Of a stretch of DNA of 53,864 nt, positions 2,054-6,854 are shown one piece after another (position 1 is the stretch's first letter; the number at the start of each line of letters is the position of its first letter). This stretch comes from Alphaproteobacteria bacterium (GTDB lineage Bacteria > Pseudomonadota > Alphaproteobacteria > Caulobacterales > Aquidulcibacteraceae): contig JAIYAO010000166.1 of NCBI GenBank assembly GCA_027488965.1, positions 1 to 53,864 of the forward strand, read 5' to 3'. Both the position numbers and the translations under genes were made by a program. The notes beneath the pieces are model-generated. The model had not been told where the DNA came from. It searched no databases and saw only the letters and a program-made list of their open reading frames with translations.

Positions 2054-2979
2054 GCGCGCGCCGCTGGCGCCATTCCGCAAACAGGCACGCGCCGATGATC
2101 AGCGCCGCGCCCGCAAACACCGGCGGGCGCGGCGTTTCGGCGAAGAAGACGAAGCCGAACGCCGTCGCCCAGATCAGCCCCGTGAACTCGATGGGGGCGA
2201 GCTTCTGCGCCTCCGCGCGTGCATAGGCGAGGATCAGCAGGTACCAGCCGCCGGCGCCCAGTGCGCCCATCAGCGCAAACCACGGCAGGTCCGCCAGCGG
2301 CGGCATGGGCGAGAGCGCGATGGCGGGCCCCGCCACGATGGCGCACGGGATCGCCGTCTGCAGCAGGCCCACGCTGGGCGCGCCGTCCCGGTCGGCGCGG
2401 GTGCGCAGCAACGCGATGGCCCACGCATAGGCGGCGGCGGAGACGAGCACGGCGATGACGCCCTGCGTATGCTCGCGCGATTGCGCCGTCTCCGGCGGCG
2501 CCCCCTGCATGGCGATGATCGCGCCGGCGAAGCCAACGACACCCGCCGCGATGCTGACGGCGCGCGGACGTTCCCCCACGATGGCCCACGCAAAGAACGG
2601 GATCAGCAGCGGCGCCACGAATGCGATGGTGATGGCCTCCGCCAGCGCCAGCACGCTCAGCCCGTAGAAGAACGCGCCCGCCACCACCACGATGAGAACG
2701 CCGCGCAGCGCATGGGCCCGCACCATCTCCAGCGTGATCGCGGGCCGGCCCGCATGGTTCCAGATCAGCGCCGCCGCGGCCGACCCGAACAGGTAGCGCC
2801 CGAACAGGATCGCCGGCAGGCCATGGCTGACGGAGATGTGCTTGATCGCGGCGTCCATGGCCGACAGCAGCAGGACGCCGACGGCCGCCAGCACCGCCGC
2901 GGGCATTGAGGAAAGCATCGCCGCTTCTACGCCCGCGGGCGGGGCGCTCAAAGGGGGAGAACTGGCGACGGGTGCGCTT

Positions 2980-3043
2980 GACTAAAAGTATGGGGTGCTT
3001 GACATGGCGGTTAGCGCATGTATGATGTCCTTGTCTTTTAGTC
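2980..3043 (+). promoter_or_regulatory. Sigma-70-like promoter bracketed by a 9-bp inverted repeat
   Basis: TTGACA (2999-3004), a 16-bp spacer and TATGAT (3021-3026) form a near-consensus promoter, 62 bp before the ATG at 3088. GACTAAAAG (2980-2988) and CTTTTAGTC (3035-3043) are a perfect inverted repeat placed just outside the promoter on both sides, 55 bp apart start to start. That spacing is about five helical turns and suits a looping repressor. The XRE protein encoded at 4017-4229 in the same operon is the obvious candidate ligand; that link is inference. Confidence 0.65.
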
Positions 3044-3087
3044 GGTGCTGCTTGTCATGGTGGCCCGCTCTTTCGCTGGAGACCACG

Positions 3088-4020
3088 ATGACTGCCCTAA
3101 CGTCCTCCCCCCCGCCGGCCGGTGGCAGACCCAGCCGCATCCTGCGCCTGGCGACGCTGGCGGCCGCCATGGCCGCCCTTTCGGTCACCGGCGCGCCCAA
3201 TCCCCGGACGATCGACGGCCTGACCGCGGCGGGCGCGCCGGAGGGCGCGGCGGGGCTTGTGCTGCACGTGGCCCCCATTCTGCTGGCGCTGGCCGCCTGG
3301 CCCGCGATGCAGGCGCTGGCCCGCGGCCGCAGCCCGCTGGTGCGATCCACCGTCTATGCGCTGACCGGCGTGGTCATCGGGTTCTTCACGGCCGTCTGCC
3401 TCGACCTCTTCGTCGGCGTAGAGCCCGCCATGGAGCGGCTCACCGGGCCGCTCGGCGAGGCGGGCGACATCGACATCGTGGCATGGGCGCTGTCGGGCTA
3501 CAGCCTGTTCAGCGGCGCGCTGATGCTGGCGATCGCCGCCATCGGCACGCCGGCGGCGCGCGCGGTATCGCTGGAGGAGGCCGATCCCGAATGCACGGAG
3601 GTGCGGCGGCGCGACCGGGCGACGTTCGCCTTCTCCGCGGTGGGCCTGCTCGGACAGGGCGTGTTCGTGGGCGCCTTTGCGGTGGCCAACCAGCTCGACG
3701 TGGAGGCCGCCGGGGTGCGCCTCGGCGTGACCGGGGCGGTGGCCGCCGGCGCGCTGGCCTTTGCGTGGGGCTCGTGGAGCCTGTGGCGGCGGTTCGACGA
3801 AATGCAGCGGCGCGCCACCGTGGAGGCGTACGCCTGGTCCGGCTTCGCTGCGTGGTTCGGATGCATGATCTGGGCGGTGCTTGAGAGCCTCTCGCTGGCG
3901 CCGGCGCTGACCGCCTACGGCGCCGTGGTGGGCCTCGTGGTCCTGCAGAACATCGCCGCGACGATCGTCTCCGCCCAGACCACCATGGCGCCGGCCCGCA
4001 GACTGGTGGTGGGCGCATGA
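3088..4020 (+). CDS. Multi-pass membrane protein, first gene of XRE-linked operon
   Basis: This is a protein of 310 residues with about eight predicted membrane segments and no recognised catalytic motif. I chose the ATG at 3088 because GGAG sits six bases upstream and the start follows the promoter at 2999-3026; longer in-frame starts lie upstream of or inside that promoter. Near the C-terminus a cytosolic stretch F-D-E-M-Q-R-R-A followed by A-Y-A-W-S-G (about 3788-3843) resembles a stretch in the membrane protein encoded at 4241-4708. Small membrane proteins with a D-E-x-Q-R-R motif are often encoded beside YozG-type XRE regulators, and this gene overlaps such a regulator by four bases (ATGA). 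Function is unknown; sensing or membrane-stress roles are only guesses. Confidence 0.75.
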   Translation: MTALTSSPPPAGGRPSRILRLATLAAAMAALSVTGAPNPRTIDGLTAAGAPEGAAGLVLHVAPILLALAAWPAMQALARGRSPLVRSTVYALTGVVIGFFTAVCLDLFVGVEPAMERLTGPLGEAGDIDIVAWALSGYSLFSGALMLAIAAIGTPAARAVSLEEADPECTEVRRRDRATFAFSAVGLLGQGVFVGAFAVANQLDVEAAGVRLGVTGAVAAGALAFAWGSWSLWRRFDEMQRRATVEAYAWSGFAAWFGCMIWAVLESLSLAPALTAYGAVVGLVVLQNIAATIVSAQTTMAPARRLVVGA

Positions 4021-4229
4021 AGAACAAGCTTCGCGTGCTCCGCGCCGAACGCGCCTGGAGCCAGGCCGATCTCGCCGATCATCTCGGCGTCTCGCGCCAG
4101 ACCATCAACGCCATCGAGGTCGGCAAATACGATCCGTCGCTGCCGCTGGCCTTCAAGATCGCACGCCTCTTTGCGATGTCGATCGAGCAGATCTTCCAGG
4201 ACGAAGACGTCGCCCGGGCGGCGGAGTGA
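4017..4229 (+). CDS. XRE-family HTH transcriptional regulator (YozG-like)
   Basis: This is a minimal 70-residue DNA-binding protein consisting almost only of a helix-turn-helix. It begins M-K-N-K-L-R-V-L-R-A and carries W-S-Q-A-D-L-A, V-S-R-Q-T-I-N-A-I-E and the family ending I-A-R-L-F ... I-E-Q-I-F. There is no ligand or oligomerisation domain beyond the HTH. The ATG overlaps the TGA of the preceding membrane-protein gene, implying translational coupling, and its own stop is 11 bases before the next start. It most likely regulates its own operon through the inverted repeat around the promoter at 2980-3043; that is inferred from position. Confidence 0.93.
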   Translation: MKNKLRVLRAERAWSQADLADHLGVSRQTINAIEVGKYDPSLPLAFKIARLFAMSIEQIFQDEDVARAAE

Positions 4230-4240
4230 AGGAGGTGGTC

Positions 4241-4708
4241 ATGCAGCAAACCAAATCACAACCGCGCTCCCGGCCCCAGCTGGTGATGTACGGCGGCCTG
4301 ATCGCGCTCTTCGCCTTGGGGATCGCCGTCGGCCTCGTCGACGAAGCCTGGCTCGCACGTTTCGCCACGGAATCGCCGTGGATCGTAATCGGCGGATGCC
4401 TGCTGCTCACGGCGTTCGCCATCGCGGTCAGCGCCGCCTACATGCGCGGCATCGACGAGCTGGCCCAGCGTGCGCACTACATCGCCTGGTACTGGGGCGG
4501 CTCCGTCGGCCTCACGCTTCTGCTGTTTCTCCTCGTGGCGTGGCCGGCGCTCTCGCAGGTCGTCGATGTGGAGGCGCTCACGGCGCCCCTGTCGCGCCTC
4601 TACGGCGAACCCGGCGGCGAGTTCCTGGGCGGCGTCGTCGCCAGCATCCTCGCGCTGACGCTCGGCTATTTCGGCTGGTGGGTCGTCTACTGGCTCCGCA
4701 AGACCTGA
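4241..4708 (+). CDS. Four-TM membrane protein, third gene of XRE-linked operon
   Basis: This encodes 155 residues with four hydrophobic segments, at about residues 16-38, 44-67, 83-105 and 127-150. The start ATG at 4241 has a perfect AAGGAGGT at 4229-4236; a GTG at 4226 overlapping the previous stop is less likely. Between segments two and three lies I-D-E-L-A-Q-R-A ... A-W-Y-W-G-G, which aligns by eye with F-D-E-M-Q-R-R-A ... A-Y-A-W-S-G in the protein at 3088-4020. The two membrane proteins may therefore be distant relatives placed either side of the regulator. I recognise no enzymatic motif. It may belong to the small membrane proteins commonly found next to YozG-type regulators. Confidence 0.8.
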   Translation: MQQTKSQPRSRPQLVMYGGLIALFALGIAVGLVDEAWLARFATESPWIVIGGCLLLTAFAIAVSAAYMRGIDELAQRAHYIAWYWGGSVGLTLLLFLLVAWPALSQVVDVEALTAPLSRLYGEPGGEFLGGVVASILALTLGYFGWWVVYWLRKT

Positions 4709-4719
4709 GGAGGGCCGCA

Positions 4720-5049
4720 ATGCTTTTGCAACATGGCGCCGTCGCGCCGAAACGGAGCGGTCCCATGCGCACAGGATCGGAAATGCGTCGCGGCGCGGGC
4801 GAGCCGGCCGGCCGCCGCGACCTGAGCGGGACTGCCGCCATGAGGGACGAAGTCGACATCGCGCCGGTCGCCAGACTGCGCCTGACCGACGGTGAGAAAG
4901 CCATGCTGTTCGATCTCGCCATGGAGGCCGGCGGGTTTCGCGGCGCCGCCGCCGCCACCCGCAGCGACGCCTTGGCTGCAGCACCGCTGATCCTCGCATT
5001 CGCCCAGGCCTACGTGTCCATCCGCGACCGCGCCGAAGGCATCGTCTGA
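4720..5049 (+). CDS. Hypothetical small protein, fourth gene of XRE-linked operon
   Basis: This is an unrecognised 109-residue protein. The ATG at 4720 follows GAGGAGG with a seven-base gap and lies 11 bases after the previous stop, so it is clearly part of the operon. The N-terminal half is rich in Arg and Gly and looks disordered. The C-terminal half, from L-T-D-G-E-K-A-M-L-F onwards, looks like a compact helical domain of about 60 residues. There is no signal peptide, no membrane segment and no cysteine. A start at one of the internal ATG codons (for example 4765) would give a shorter version without the disordered part. Confidence 0.6.
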   Translation: MLLQHGAVAPKRSGPMRTGSEMRRGAGEPAGRRDLSGTAAMRDEVDIAPVARLRLTDGEKAMLFDLAMEAGGFRGAAAATRSDALAAAPLILAFAQAYVSIRDRAEGIV

Positions 5050-5076
5050 ACGCTTTCAATCTACAAGGAGAACCCA

Positions 5077-6039
5077 ATGCCCGTTTCCAGGAAGGCTGCC
5101 GCCGTGTCGGCCATGGTCGCCGCCATGCTGTTCGCCGGCGCCTGCGCTGCAACGCCCGCGTCCACCAACGCTGCGCCCATGACCGCCGCAGCTGCGCCCG
5201 CCGTGGCCGGTCCGCCGCAACCCGCGGTGTGGGCCGTGCGCGATGCGGACTCCACCATCTACCTCTACGGCACCATCCACCTGCGCAAGAAGGGCGCGCC
5301 GTGGAGCGGGCCCGTCGCCGAGCGCGCGCTGCAGGAGGCCAGCGAGGTGTGGACCGAACTTGAAATCAATCCCGCGAGCGAAGCGGCTGCGCAGCAACTC
5401 GTCGTGCAGTACGGCCTCGATCCGGCGAACAAGCTGACGGCGAAACTGACGCCCGAACGGGCGCAGCAACTGAAGCAGGTCGCCGAGTCCATGGGCCTGC
5501 CGATGGCGCAGCTGGAGACGATGAAGCCGTGGCTGGCCAGCCTCACGCTGTCGCTCTTGCCGATGATGCGCGCCGGCTACGATCCGGCCAACGGCGTGGA
5601 CCGCAACGTCGATCGCGTTGCGGAAGCGGCGGGCAAGAAGATGCGCTGGTTCGAGACGGGGGCCGAGCAGATCCGCTTCTTCGCGGGCTTCGACGAAGCC
5701 GTGCAGGTGCAGATGCTGCAGGACTCGCTCGACGAAGTCGCTGAAGGCGCAGCGCTGCTGGCGCGCATGGAAGCGGCGTGGGAAGTGGGCGACGACGCCA
5801 CCCTCGCCAACGACATGGTCGCCGAGATGCGGCGTGACTATCCGGCGCTCTATGACGTGCTGCTGCGTCGCCGCAACGCGGCCTGGGTGGAGACGCTTTC
5901 GGCCGAGCTCGCGGGGTCCGGCGTGGACTTCGTAGCGGTCGGCGCCGCCCACCTGGTGGGGCCTGACAGCGTGCAGGCGATGTTCGCCGCCCGCGGCGTC
6001 ACGGTGGAGCGAGTCTCGCCGCCGGCGCCGGCGCGCTAA
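5077..6039 (+). CDS. TraB/GumN-family lipoprotein
   Basis: This is a 320-residue envelope protein of the TraB/GumN (ChaN/EreA-like) family. It has the defining G-T-I-H motif at residues 65-68 after a W-A-V-R-D beta strand, and the late G-A-A-H-L-V-G motif that with it marks the presumed metal-binding active site. Some members are thought to be metal-dependent peptidases; the activity here is not shown. The N-terminus is a signal sequence ending A-G-A-C, so Cys23 is probably lipidated. AAGGAG lies nine bases before the ATG. The gap to the preceding small gene is only 27 bases, so it may be the last gene of the XRE-led operon. Its stop overlaps the end of the convergent gene by four bases. Confidence 0.85.
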   Translation: MPVSRKAAAVSAMVAAMLFAGACAATPASTNAAPMTAAAAPAVAGPPQPAVWAVRDADSTIYLYGTIHLRKKGAPWSGPVAERALQEASEVWTELEINPASEAAAQQLVVQYGLDPANKLTAKLTPERAQQLKQVAESMGLPMAQLETMKPWLASLTLSLLPMMRAGYDPANGVDRNVDRVAEAAGKKMRWFETGAEQIRFFAGFDEAVQVQMLQDSLDEVAEGAALLARMEAAWEVGDDATLANDMVAEMRRDYPALYDVLLRRRNAAWVETLSAELAGSGVDFVAVGAAHLVGPDSVQAMFAARGVTVERVSPPAPAR

Positions 6040-6713
6040 TGTCTGGCCTGCAGCCGCGCCTTCGGGGCGCGGGTGCGGTCCAGCAGGAAGCCAAGTGCGG
6101 TGATCGCCAAGTAGGCGGCCAACGCCTGCGGCGCAAAACCGATCACATCCGCGGGCGTGGGGCCTAGCTTGTCGAAAGCATAGAGCCCCACGAACGCGGC
6201 GATCAGCGCCCACGGCGCGATGCGCCCCTCGGGGCCCAGCGGCGTGGTGGCGCCCAGGTACACGAAGAACCCGCCGAACAGCACGACCGCCTCCGACGCG
6301 ATGGCGAGGACGGGGTTGTCCCACCAGCCCAGGCCCACCTTCGGCCCGCCGATCCAGAGTTCGAGATCGGGCGCGTGGACGAGCAGGTCGAGCGCCCAGT
6401 GCGAGAATACGCACGCCCCGATGAGCAGCGCCGCCGGCCAGCCGCCGCGCCGGTCCAGCAGGCGATAGACCAGCGCCCCCGCCGCCGCGAAGGCGAGCGC
6501 GCCGGGCAGGCTGTGGGTGTAGGGCATGTGCTCGAGGCGCAGGTCCGACATGGCCAGGAAGCCCGGCTCGATGCGCCCGCGCTCGATGCCGGTCAGGATG
6601 AAGGCGGCCCAGGCCACGTCCACCAGCTGCACCGCCAGGAACGCCGCGCCGAGGGAAGGGGGCCGCTTCCAAGCCTTCACCGCGAACGCGGGGCCGTAGT
6701 GACCCACGAACAT
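6036..6713 (-). CDS. YdjM/DUF457-like membrane protein, putative metal-dependent hydrolase
   Basis: This 225-residue integral membrane protein opens with M-F-V-G-H-Y-G-P-A-F and contains H-M-P-Y-T-H-S and F-S-H-W-A-L-D-L-L-V-H-A-P-D. The spaced His and Asp residues at the membrane face are what the LexA-regulated YdjM-like (DUF457) family is known for, and members are annotated as putative metal-dependent hydrolases. About six hydrophobic segments follow, and the C-terminus is short and basic. The gene ends against the TraB/GumN gene and is transcribed away from the dcm-vsr region. I see no LexA box upstream. Enzymatic activity is unproven for the family. Confidence 0.7.
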   Translation of the reverse strand: MFVGHYGPAFAVKAWKRPPSLGAAFLAVQLVDVAWAAFILTGIERGRIEPGFLAMSDLRLEHMPYTHSLPGALAFAAAGALVYRLLDRRGGWPAALLIGACVFSHWALDLLVHAPDLELWIGGPKVGLGWWDNPVLAIASEAVVLFGGFFVYLGATTPLGPEGRIAPWALIAAFVGLYAFDKLGPTPADVIGFAPQALAAYLAITALGFLLDRTRAPKARLQARH

Positions 6714-6797
6714 GGCCGCCTCCCTGCTGATTCTCTGGCCTGCCTGTATTCTGGCCGAACCGTAATCTCACTGCTGCCGCAGCGATAGCGCCGGCGC

Positions 6798-6854
6798 TTG
6801 ACCCGACCTGCAAACGAGTCTCAAATGCAATTGCGAGTTATTCGCAACTAGGAG
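6798..6854 (+). promoter_or_regulatory. Candidate promoter overlapped by two Fur-like palindromes
   Basis: Reading rightwards, TTGACC (6798-6803), a 17-bp spacer and TCAAAT (6821-6826) form a plausible promoter. Two dyads cover the -10 and the start point. The first is a 21-bp element at 6809-6829 with GCA-N3-GAG and CTC-N3-TGC arms. The second is TTGCGA-N5-TCGCAA at 6831-6847. Their centres are 20 bp apart. Both resemble Fur/Irr-type iron boxes of proteobacteria. TAGGAG follows at 6849-6854. The promoter elements are seen directly; the assignment to Fur is by resemblance only. Confidence 0.45.

Follow-up and report, generated by a model that had tools for sequence, protein, structure and literature searches.

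Do the five genes at positions 3088-6039 of contig JAIYAO010000166.1 (assembly GCA_027488965.1, an alphaproteobacterium of the Aquidulcibacteraceae) make up a single system, and if so, of what kind? The initial annotation of this 53,864-nucleotide stretch, referred to below as the window, described an operon that joins a minimal DNA-binding regulator, two membrane proteins, a small protein and an exported TraB/GumN protein, and proposed that it might serve envelope sensing and proteolysis or be a defence-like module. All five open reading frames (ORFs) were confirmed on the plus strand, with coordinates and gaps (-4, 11, 11 and 27 bases) as annotated. We conclude that the operon is probably an XRE-plus-membrane-protein regulatory pair, of a kind already known, that here newly has a TraB/GumN protein as its output. 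Searches of the open-licence PubMed Central (PMC) library listed no paper on an XRE-membrane-TraB unit, although one query was worded without the slash and could have passed over the name as it appears in print.

The operon opens with memA (3088-4020, + strand, like all that follow), encoding a 310-residue multi-pass membrane protein whose C-terminal half is a domain of four transmembrane helices (4TM) marked by an Asp-Glu (DE) motif (D237-E238-x-x-R241). Overlapping its end is the gene for a 70-residue, CylR2-like regulator of the XRE/Cro type (4017-4229), with Thr29 in its recognition helix and a Pfam match to HTH_3 (6.6e-15). Next come memB (4241-4708, or from a possible alternative GTG start at 4226), which encodes a 155-residue 4TM protein with its DE motif at D72-E73; a gene for a small, lineage-specific protein of 109 residues (4720-5049); and a gene for a 320-residue exported, probably lipo-, protein of the TraB/GumN family (5077-6039), which matches TraB_PrgY_gumN in Pfam (6.7e-72) and has all of the conserved motif residues. 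MemA, MemB and the 109-residue protein matched no Pfam or NCBIfam family above the curated cut-off. Localisation of the products of the operon to the envelope is plausible.

The core of this operon recurs in other genera and families, and the association of its genes is therefore more than chance. Relatives of memA were found in 24 of 200 genomes of the order, and 17 of the 19 stretches read around them hold both the XRE gene (69-88% identity) and a TraB gene; the exceptions are one stretch without TraB (L034) and the one with the second TraB gene of the window's own genome (L038). XRE and TraB were also searched for separately and their coordinates joined. At least 42 of 150 genomes of the order have both genes on one strand and no more than 4 kb apart; in at least 41 of the 150, the window included, TraB follows XRE on that strand at a distance of up to 2 kb. 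By family, the genes are linked in at least 17 of 31 genomes of family f1 and at least 24 of 30 of family f3, and one linked genome, from family f5, has them in reverse order. In a second alphaproteobacterial order, linkage was seen in at least 17 of 118 genomes, all of family f17. These numbers are lower bounds, drawn from most of the matches listed for the first order and, for the second, from the main f17 matches plus a few others. Across the 59 linked genomes counted (G053, linked in locus L123, was left out), the genes share a strand in all and an order in all but one. In a sample of the class spread over families, linkage appeared in only 3 of 19 TraB-bearing genomes (matched rows plus 1.5-kb flanks), and in a sample of the phylum the 30 best TraB loci include 8 flanked by an XRE gene of the same kind (the window's own and 7 of the remaining 29), every one of them from these same three families. 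The unit is thus real and, within the sampled genomes, restricted to a few alphaproteobacterial families; f1 appears to include the Hyphomonadaceae (L027) and f17 to lie close to the Sphingomonadaceae. A named example is the Sphingomonas parapaucimobilis plasmid NZ_CP155756.1, with a helix-turn-helix (HTH) gene, three hypothetical genes and TraB/GumN. That the unit is conserved we hold to be nearly certain.

Which of the five genes belong to it? The linkage of TraB/GumN to the XRE/membrane pair, as the initial annotation had it, held in many other genomes, and the constant core consists of a membrane protein, XRE and TraB. The five-gene unit survives in this core, whereas the second membrane gene is not constant between lineages and the small gene is nearly genus-specific: the latter was found in 4 of 60 genomes of the family, 3 of them of the same genus, and its proposed linkage to the XRE pair fails outside the genus. 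A genome of the same genus (G192) has the small gene, XRE and TraB, and neither memA nor memB was found there when looked for. At many f1 loci XRE is preceded by memA. At f3 loci a memB-like gene often takes this place, in some with a memA-like gene behind XRE as well, and tandem TraB genes are common in f17. Overlaps of 4 bases are frequent: 33 of 89 membrane ORFs end 4 bases inside the XRE gene, and the XRE and TraB genes themselves overlap by 4 bases in L029, L036 and L105. An alpha/beta hydrolase gene with a signal-like N-terminus stands between XRE and TraB in L043 (by Pfam) and in L118 and L123 (by likeness). These gene maps were built with a simple ORF chooser and include some spurious ORFs.

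The history of the TraB gene bears on the same question. In a tree of 88 TraB sequences (5 of 93 were omitted as repeats or near-copies), all 66 sequences from XRE loci fall into one supported clade of 73, which also holds seven labelled as unlinked. The window's own genome has a second TraB/GumN gene on another contig (G000:C77:14418-15206); it lies outside the XRE-linked clade, and this XRE gene is absent from the 10.6-kb stretch read around it. The TraB copies of two f3 loci (L106, L107) and of one f1 genus (L042, L045, L120, L122) sit among those of f17, which suggests transfer between families.

How would such an operon be controlled? Upstream of memA lies a promoter (2999-3026, +) with TTGACA at 2999-3004, a 16-base spacer and TATGAT at 3021-3026, matching the consensus at 11 of 12 positions. 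A scan of 2500-6800 with this single consensus found no other promoter-like site, against a mean of 0.2 in shuffles. The region 4709-5076, where a separate promoter would have split off the TraB gene, yielded no sigma-70-type site, and we reject a second promoter within the operon on that one consensus scan. When 8-mers around XRE genes were counted, GCTTGACA ranked first, in 31 of 54 loci with 0.58 expected, and it was again the top 8-mer in other XRE loci (20 of 40, 0.24 expected). Inspection of the places where it occurs revealed the promoter together with palindromes. The palindrome CCTTGWC-N5-GWCAAGG, scored at 12 or more of 14 positions, is present upstream at 32 of 55 loci and downstream at none of the 55, with 4 hits among 275 shuffles, and with spacers other than N5 it occurs in only 0-6 of the 55 loci.

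In its conserved form this palindrome reads CCTTGTC-N5-GACAAGG, and two imperfect copies flank the window promoter. The candidate operator O2 (CCTTGTC-TTTTA-GTCGGTG, 3029-3047, +; 11 of 14 positions) covers the expected transcription start, a position that fits repression. The other, O1 (CTTGAC-TAAAA-GTATGGG, 2977-2994, +), is an imperfect palindrome with a 5-base spacer upstream of the promoter, and is the only exact match in its own genome to CTTGWCWWWWNGWMNNGG, a pattern derived from O1 itself and its relatives. Scanning the own genome with the site pattern at up to one mismatch gave six matches, two of them at this operon, the sole exact one included, and the predicted regulon is mainly this operon. 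Across loci, the peak corresponding to the O1 region, 54-55 bases upstream, reaches 2.6 standard deviations (sd), with 9 or more of 14 positions in eight loci at -55 and five at -54; it is no higher than the peaks at 8 and 13 bases, so the second operator is less sure than O2. With the palindrome slid over 32 promoters, the peaks next in height flank the main operator on both sides at a distance of 21 bases (3.9 and 3.6 sd), and these weaker half-site peaks might mean that several XRE dimers sit side by side. Sequence comparison thus lends good support to conserved candidate control sites around the promoter.

The XRE protein itself is the probable ligand of these sites. Within the first set of loci, those of f1 and f3 have SRQT in the recognition helix, with exceptions (SRQA in three f3 loci, SRQS in L123 and L125), and all 16 of f17 have SRQA; SRQS is common among the other 40 XRE loci. 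When at least 11 of 12 positions must match, 26 of the 34 loci with Thr29 have CTTGTC-N5-GACAAG and 12 of the 19 with Ala29 have C[A/C]TGAC-N5-GTCA[G/T]G, with no locus of the opposite type in either group and 0 of 55 downstream controls for both operator types. With the cut at 10 of 12, the better type winning, 29 of the 34 Thr loci are of the Thr type, one is opposite and four, the window among them, are unclassed; 17 of the 19 Ala loci are of the Ala type and two are unclassed, as are both Ser loci. Of the loci whose TraB copies lie among those of f17, L106 and L107 of f3 have the Ala helix plus the GAC-N5-GTC core (L106 below threshold), and the f1 genus of L042, L045, L120 and L122 has the Thr helix and Thr-type sites. 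This co-variation of residue 29 with the operator core supports XRE as the likely binder.

CylR2 of Enterococcus faecalis matches the window XRE over 59 residues (phmmer, 5.6e-12), and both are short XRE proteins without a sensor domain. CylR2 is reported to bind at the promoter and to work with CylR1, a suspected membrane protein encoded by the adjacent gene (PMC3709268). The two systems, from different bacterial classes, differ in that the regulators here lie inside the output operon rather than divergent from it and in that the output is TraB/GumN and not a lantibiotic; the membrane partners in the window share a DE motif. The closest solved relative is 9k3w, a 'Transcriptional regulator, PbsX family' (1.5e-25 over 62 residues), on which our literature search turned up no paper; the passages found on Zymomonas 'PbsX family' proteins name phage terminases, not regulators, and were set aside.

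Could the membrane proteins be what governs this regulator? An Asp-Glu pair is present in 84 of 89 membrane ORFs beside such XRE genes (a count that takes in 71 of 95 loci), against a mean of 12.8 and a maximum of 21 in 200 shuffles. Its usual place in the 4TM unit is just behind membrane helix two, within a stretch resembling WRRxDExxRR, and the Asp and Glu are invariant in alignments of 17 MemB-like, 17 MemA-like and 18 short 4TM proteins, the members of which were picked by hand. Profile comparison shows homology between the short 4TM proteins and MemA in its C-terminal half (124 columns, probability 96.5%), and MemB shares the motif region with the short proteins (84% over 27 columns) and with MemA (81% over 64 columns). 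From its basic residues, we infer that the DE loop is cytoplasmic and contacts XRE. A similar arrangement is found in the XRE/DUF2178 pairs of streptomycetes and haloarchaea, where an XRE of the same type adjoins or overlaps a small membrane protein with an Asp-Glu-Arg (DER) motif, seen in two Streptomyces proteins and one Haladaptatus protein. Only the motif is common to the two groups: profile comparison gave a probability of 0.9% (with three sequences on one side), MemA, MemB and the relatives tested did not match the Pfam model, and membership of DUF2178 (PF09946) was rejected. In HdrRM and BrsRM, likewise, a DNA-binding protein is kept in check by a small membrane protein of the same operon; these streptococcal systems have a LytTR rather than an XRE DNA-binding domain, and their membrane proteins are not known to be related to those of the window.

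The TraB/GumN protein matches PF01963 over its whole length (positions 1-263 of 263), scoring 242.9 bits where the curated cut-off is 26.8. The family is recognised by two GxxH motifs with a conserved Glu and Arg, and Tiki, one of its relatives, has metal-dependent peptidase activity. The initial annotation was right in calling the GTIH (G65, H68) and GAAHLVG (G289, H292, G295) motifs intact, and these residues are kept in 91-92 of 93 relatives; the wider set of G65/H68, E94, E193, R266 and G289/H292 is present too, and is kept in 91-93 of the 93 TraB sequences. Its description as an exported lipoprotein is less secure: the lipobox, AGAC, is non-canonical, though the aligned Cys23 is kept in L027, where the sequence reads LMGC. 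Full-length family match and intact motif residues are what the window protein shares with known TraB/PrgY/GumN members, none of which, to our knowledge, is placed under an XRE/membrane pair (pheromone shutdown in Enterococcus, the gum cluster of Xanthomonas, YbaP of E. coli). The protein is likely to be an envelope hydrolase, and the 'proteolysis' proposed initially would follow from the family.

We favour, with somewhat better than even confidence, an autoregulated envelope-response operon: DE-motif membrane proteins would control a CylR2-like XRE, and TraB/GumN would be the output. The component claims of this reading depend on one another. The XRE protein, 70 residues long and without a sensor domain, would bind operators around its own promoter and repress it; such autoregulation appears very likely. 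MemA and MemB, through the motif that they share, would either retain XRE or set it free, depending on a membrane or periplasmic signal, a step modelled on CylR1/CylR2 and, in our estimate, reasonably probable. Once XRE is released, the whole operon would be made, including the exported TraB/GumN, which would probably act as a metal-dependent hydrolase. Its target would be a peptide in the periplasm, and this may even be the signal that induces the operon. If so, a protein of the TraB/GumN family, which extends from archaea to animals with few known roles, can be assigned a regulator, membrane partners and a control site, all open to experiment. The comparison further points to one class, marked by a single Asp-Glu motif, for many of the unnamed membrane proteins encoded next to XRE genes, and to a simple one-step device for membrane-to-DNA signalling in many alphaproteobacteria.

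Several points weigh against this reading. Autoregulation, membrane gating and the role of TraB are drawn from sequence comparison and analogy, and the AlphaFold2 models of TraB and MemA, each built from two sequences, are poor (mean predicted local distance difference test score 51 for both). The operator patterns come from the very loci that were scored, many of them related, and the window operators are imperfect (11 of 14) and unclassed by the two-type test. A reversed control pattern gives four matches in the own genome against six for the site pattern, so the four that lie outside the operon are at background level. At the 10 of 12 cut, the Ala-type pattern arises by chance in 7 of 19 regions downstream of Ala loci and in 11 of 34 upstream of Thr loci, and the co-variation of residue and operator occurs on only 2-3 independent branch pairs of the TraB tree, below significance. 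Finally, most TraB loci in the sample of the phylum (22 of the 30 best) lack an XRE of this kind in their 1.5-kb flanks, and the XRE/membrane pair also occurs without a listed TraB, with other genes downstream.

This last point can be followed further. Among 40 comparison loci, hand-chosen for an XRE gene without listed TraB nearby, 29 have a membrane ORF by set criteria. The genes behind these pairs, for which 20 proteins were searched, encode alpha/beta hydrolases, DUF898 plus M48 peptidase, a CAAX protease and a MATE transporter, while housekeeping genes in this position, such as that for glycyl-tRNA synthetase, are probably not part of the unit. Since the pair also stands before other genes, TraB would be one output of several. 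The same pair heads DUF898 (YjgN) genes in L180, L165 and L167, with an M48 peptidase gene following in L180 and L165; in L180, a plasmid of Qipengyuania citrea, the order is XRE, YjgN, M48 and alpha/beta hydrolase. On plasmid P3 of Deinococcus gobiensis (L178:340-2701), a gene of the erythromycin-esterase family directly precedes a DE-motif membrane gene and XRE; we take EreA to belong with the Tiki/TraB superfamily. Plasmids of Labrenzia, Azospirillum and Eleftheria have the pair with no obvious output gene.

That pairs of this kind elsewhere precede DUF898 with M48 peptidase, alpha/beta hydrolases and a CAAX protease also suits a response to envelope or metal stress without any peptide, in which the membrane proteins sense the state of the membrane and TraB/GumN handles damaged or metal-loaded periplasmic proteins. 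Passages on Erwinia amylovora point the same way: copper is reported to induce a TraB/GumN gene there, with a log2 change of 2.5-3.6, alongside copA and cueO (PMC12542790). Those passages mention no XRE/membrane pair, though an HTH gene is also induced (PMC12542790), and the five genes of the window include no metal-resistance gene; we regard this explanation as possible but doubtful. If, instead, XRE and the membrane genes merely regulate themselves, TraB could be a bystander, co-inherited and read through from their promoter. Pairs without a listed TraB, and TraB without XRE, speak for this. The constant strand and near-constant order in the 59 linked genomes, the 4-base overlaps, and a linkage found in three families, between which the module shows signs of having passed, make it improbable. 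The defence-like module of the initial annotation has in its favour that defence loci often include small membrane proteins and XRE regulators. PADLOC, however, matched only the XRE protein, through HTH-bearing models such as HTH_VI, capH and RmrA, and in the sister genome G132 the operon has the neighbours that it has in the window (an EamA transporter gene, a ClpB-like gene, named from its sequence alone with no database search, and a YdjM-like gene); we have set a defence system aside as very improbable.

A further alternative makes the operon a peptide-signalling circuit, in which a small secreted peptide would signal to the DE-motif membrane protein as its receptor, with XRE as the switch, and TraB/GumN would destroy or trim the peptide. 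In Enterococcus, TraB/PrgY keeps a cell from answering its own pheromone, and the XRE here is CylR2-like. In g5, a genus of the same family, an ORF of 35-36 codons lies between operator and memA in 9 of 10 memA loci inspected (L027, assigned to g5 by likeness, L029, L030, L031, L033, L035, L036, L215 and L216) and encodes seven different proteins. Judged by eye, without a predictor, the product resembles a signal peptide and has a hydrophobic tail, some 10 residues long, with Ala at its end. Its length is nearly fixed, differences by codon position number 345, 223 and 514, and the nonsynonymous (dN) and synonymous (dS) rates are 0.35 and 1.18 (dN/dS about 0.3), though dS is near saturation and some of the sequences are identical. 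Secreted-type ORFs of 63 residues in a second XRE system of g5, in L123 at the same place as the 35-residue ORF, argue in the same direction, as does the proposal that a Tiki/TraB family peptidase matures peptides in graspetide loci (PMC8939145). On the other side, a search with the 35-residue ORF matched only those nine among the loci examined, and peptide processing in the circuit is predicted from sequence only. The window has no such ORF, memA following directly on the operator as it also does in L217 of g5, and for this reason we keep the circuit as unlikely. Its fullest version, a pheromone-like circuit with fast-evolving peptides, DE receptors that directly gate XRE, shutoff by TraB and a module passed between families along with its operators, we consider slightly less likely still.

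The second XRE system of g5 (L123, L169 and L171) has an SRQS helix and combines its diverse 63-residue secreted-type ORF with an alpha/beta hydrolase; in L123 it is followed by TraB. As for the small gene of the window, the conserved portion of its product is the last 70 residues or so (4840-5049), which is possibly the true gene. At locus L028, in the sister genome, translation from the earliest start codon available would yield a 69-residue version beginning near Met41 of the window protein (ATG at 4840). The gene may therefore start at about 4840 rather than at 4720; a good GGAGG precedes 4720 and speaks against the later start. With the later start, the gap after memB would be 131 bases.

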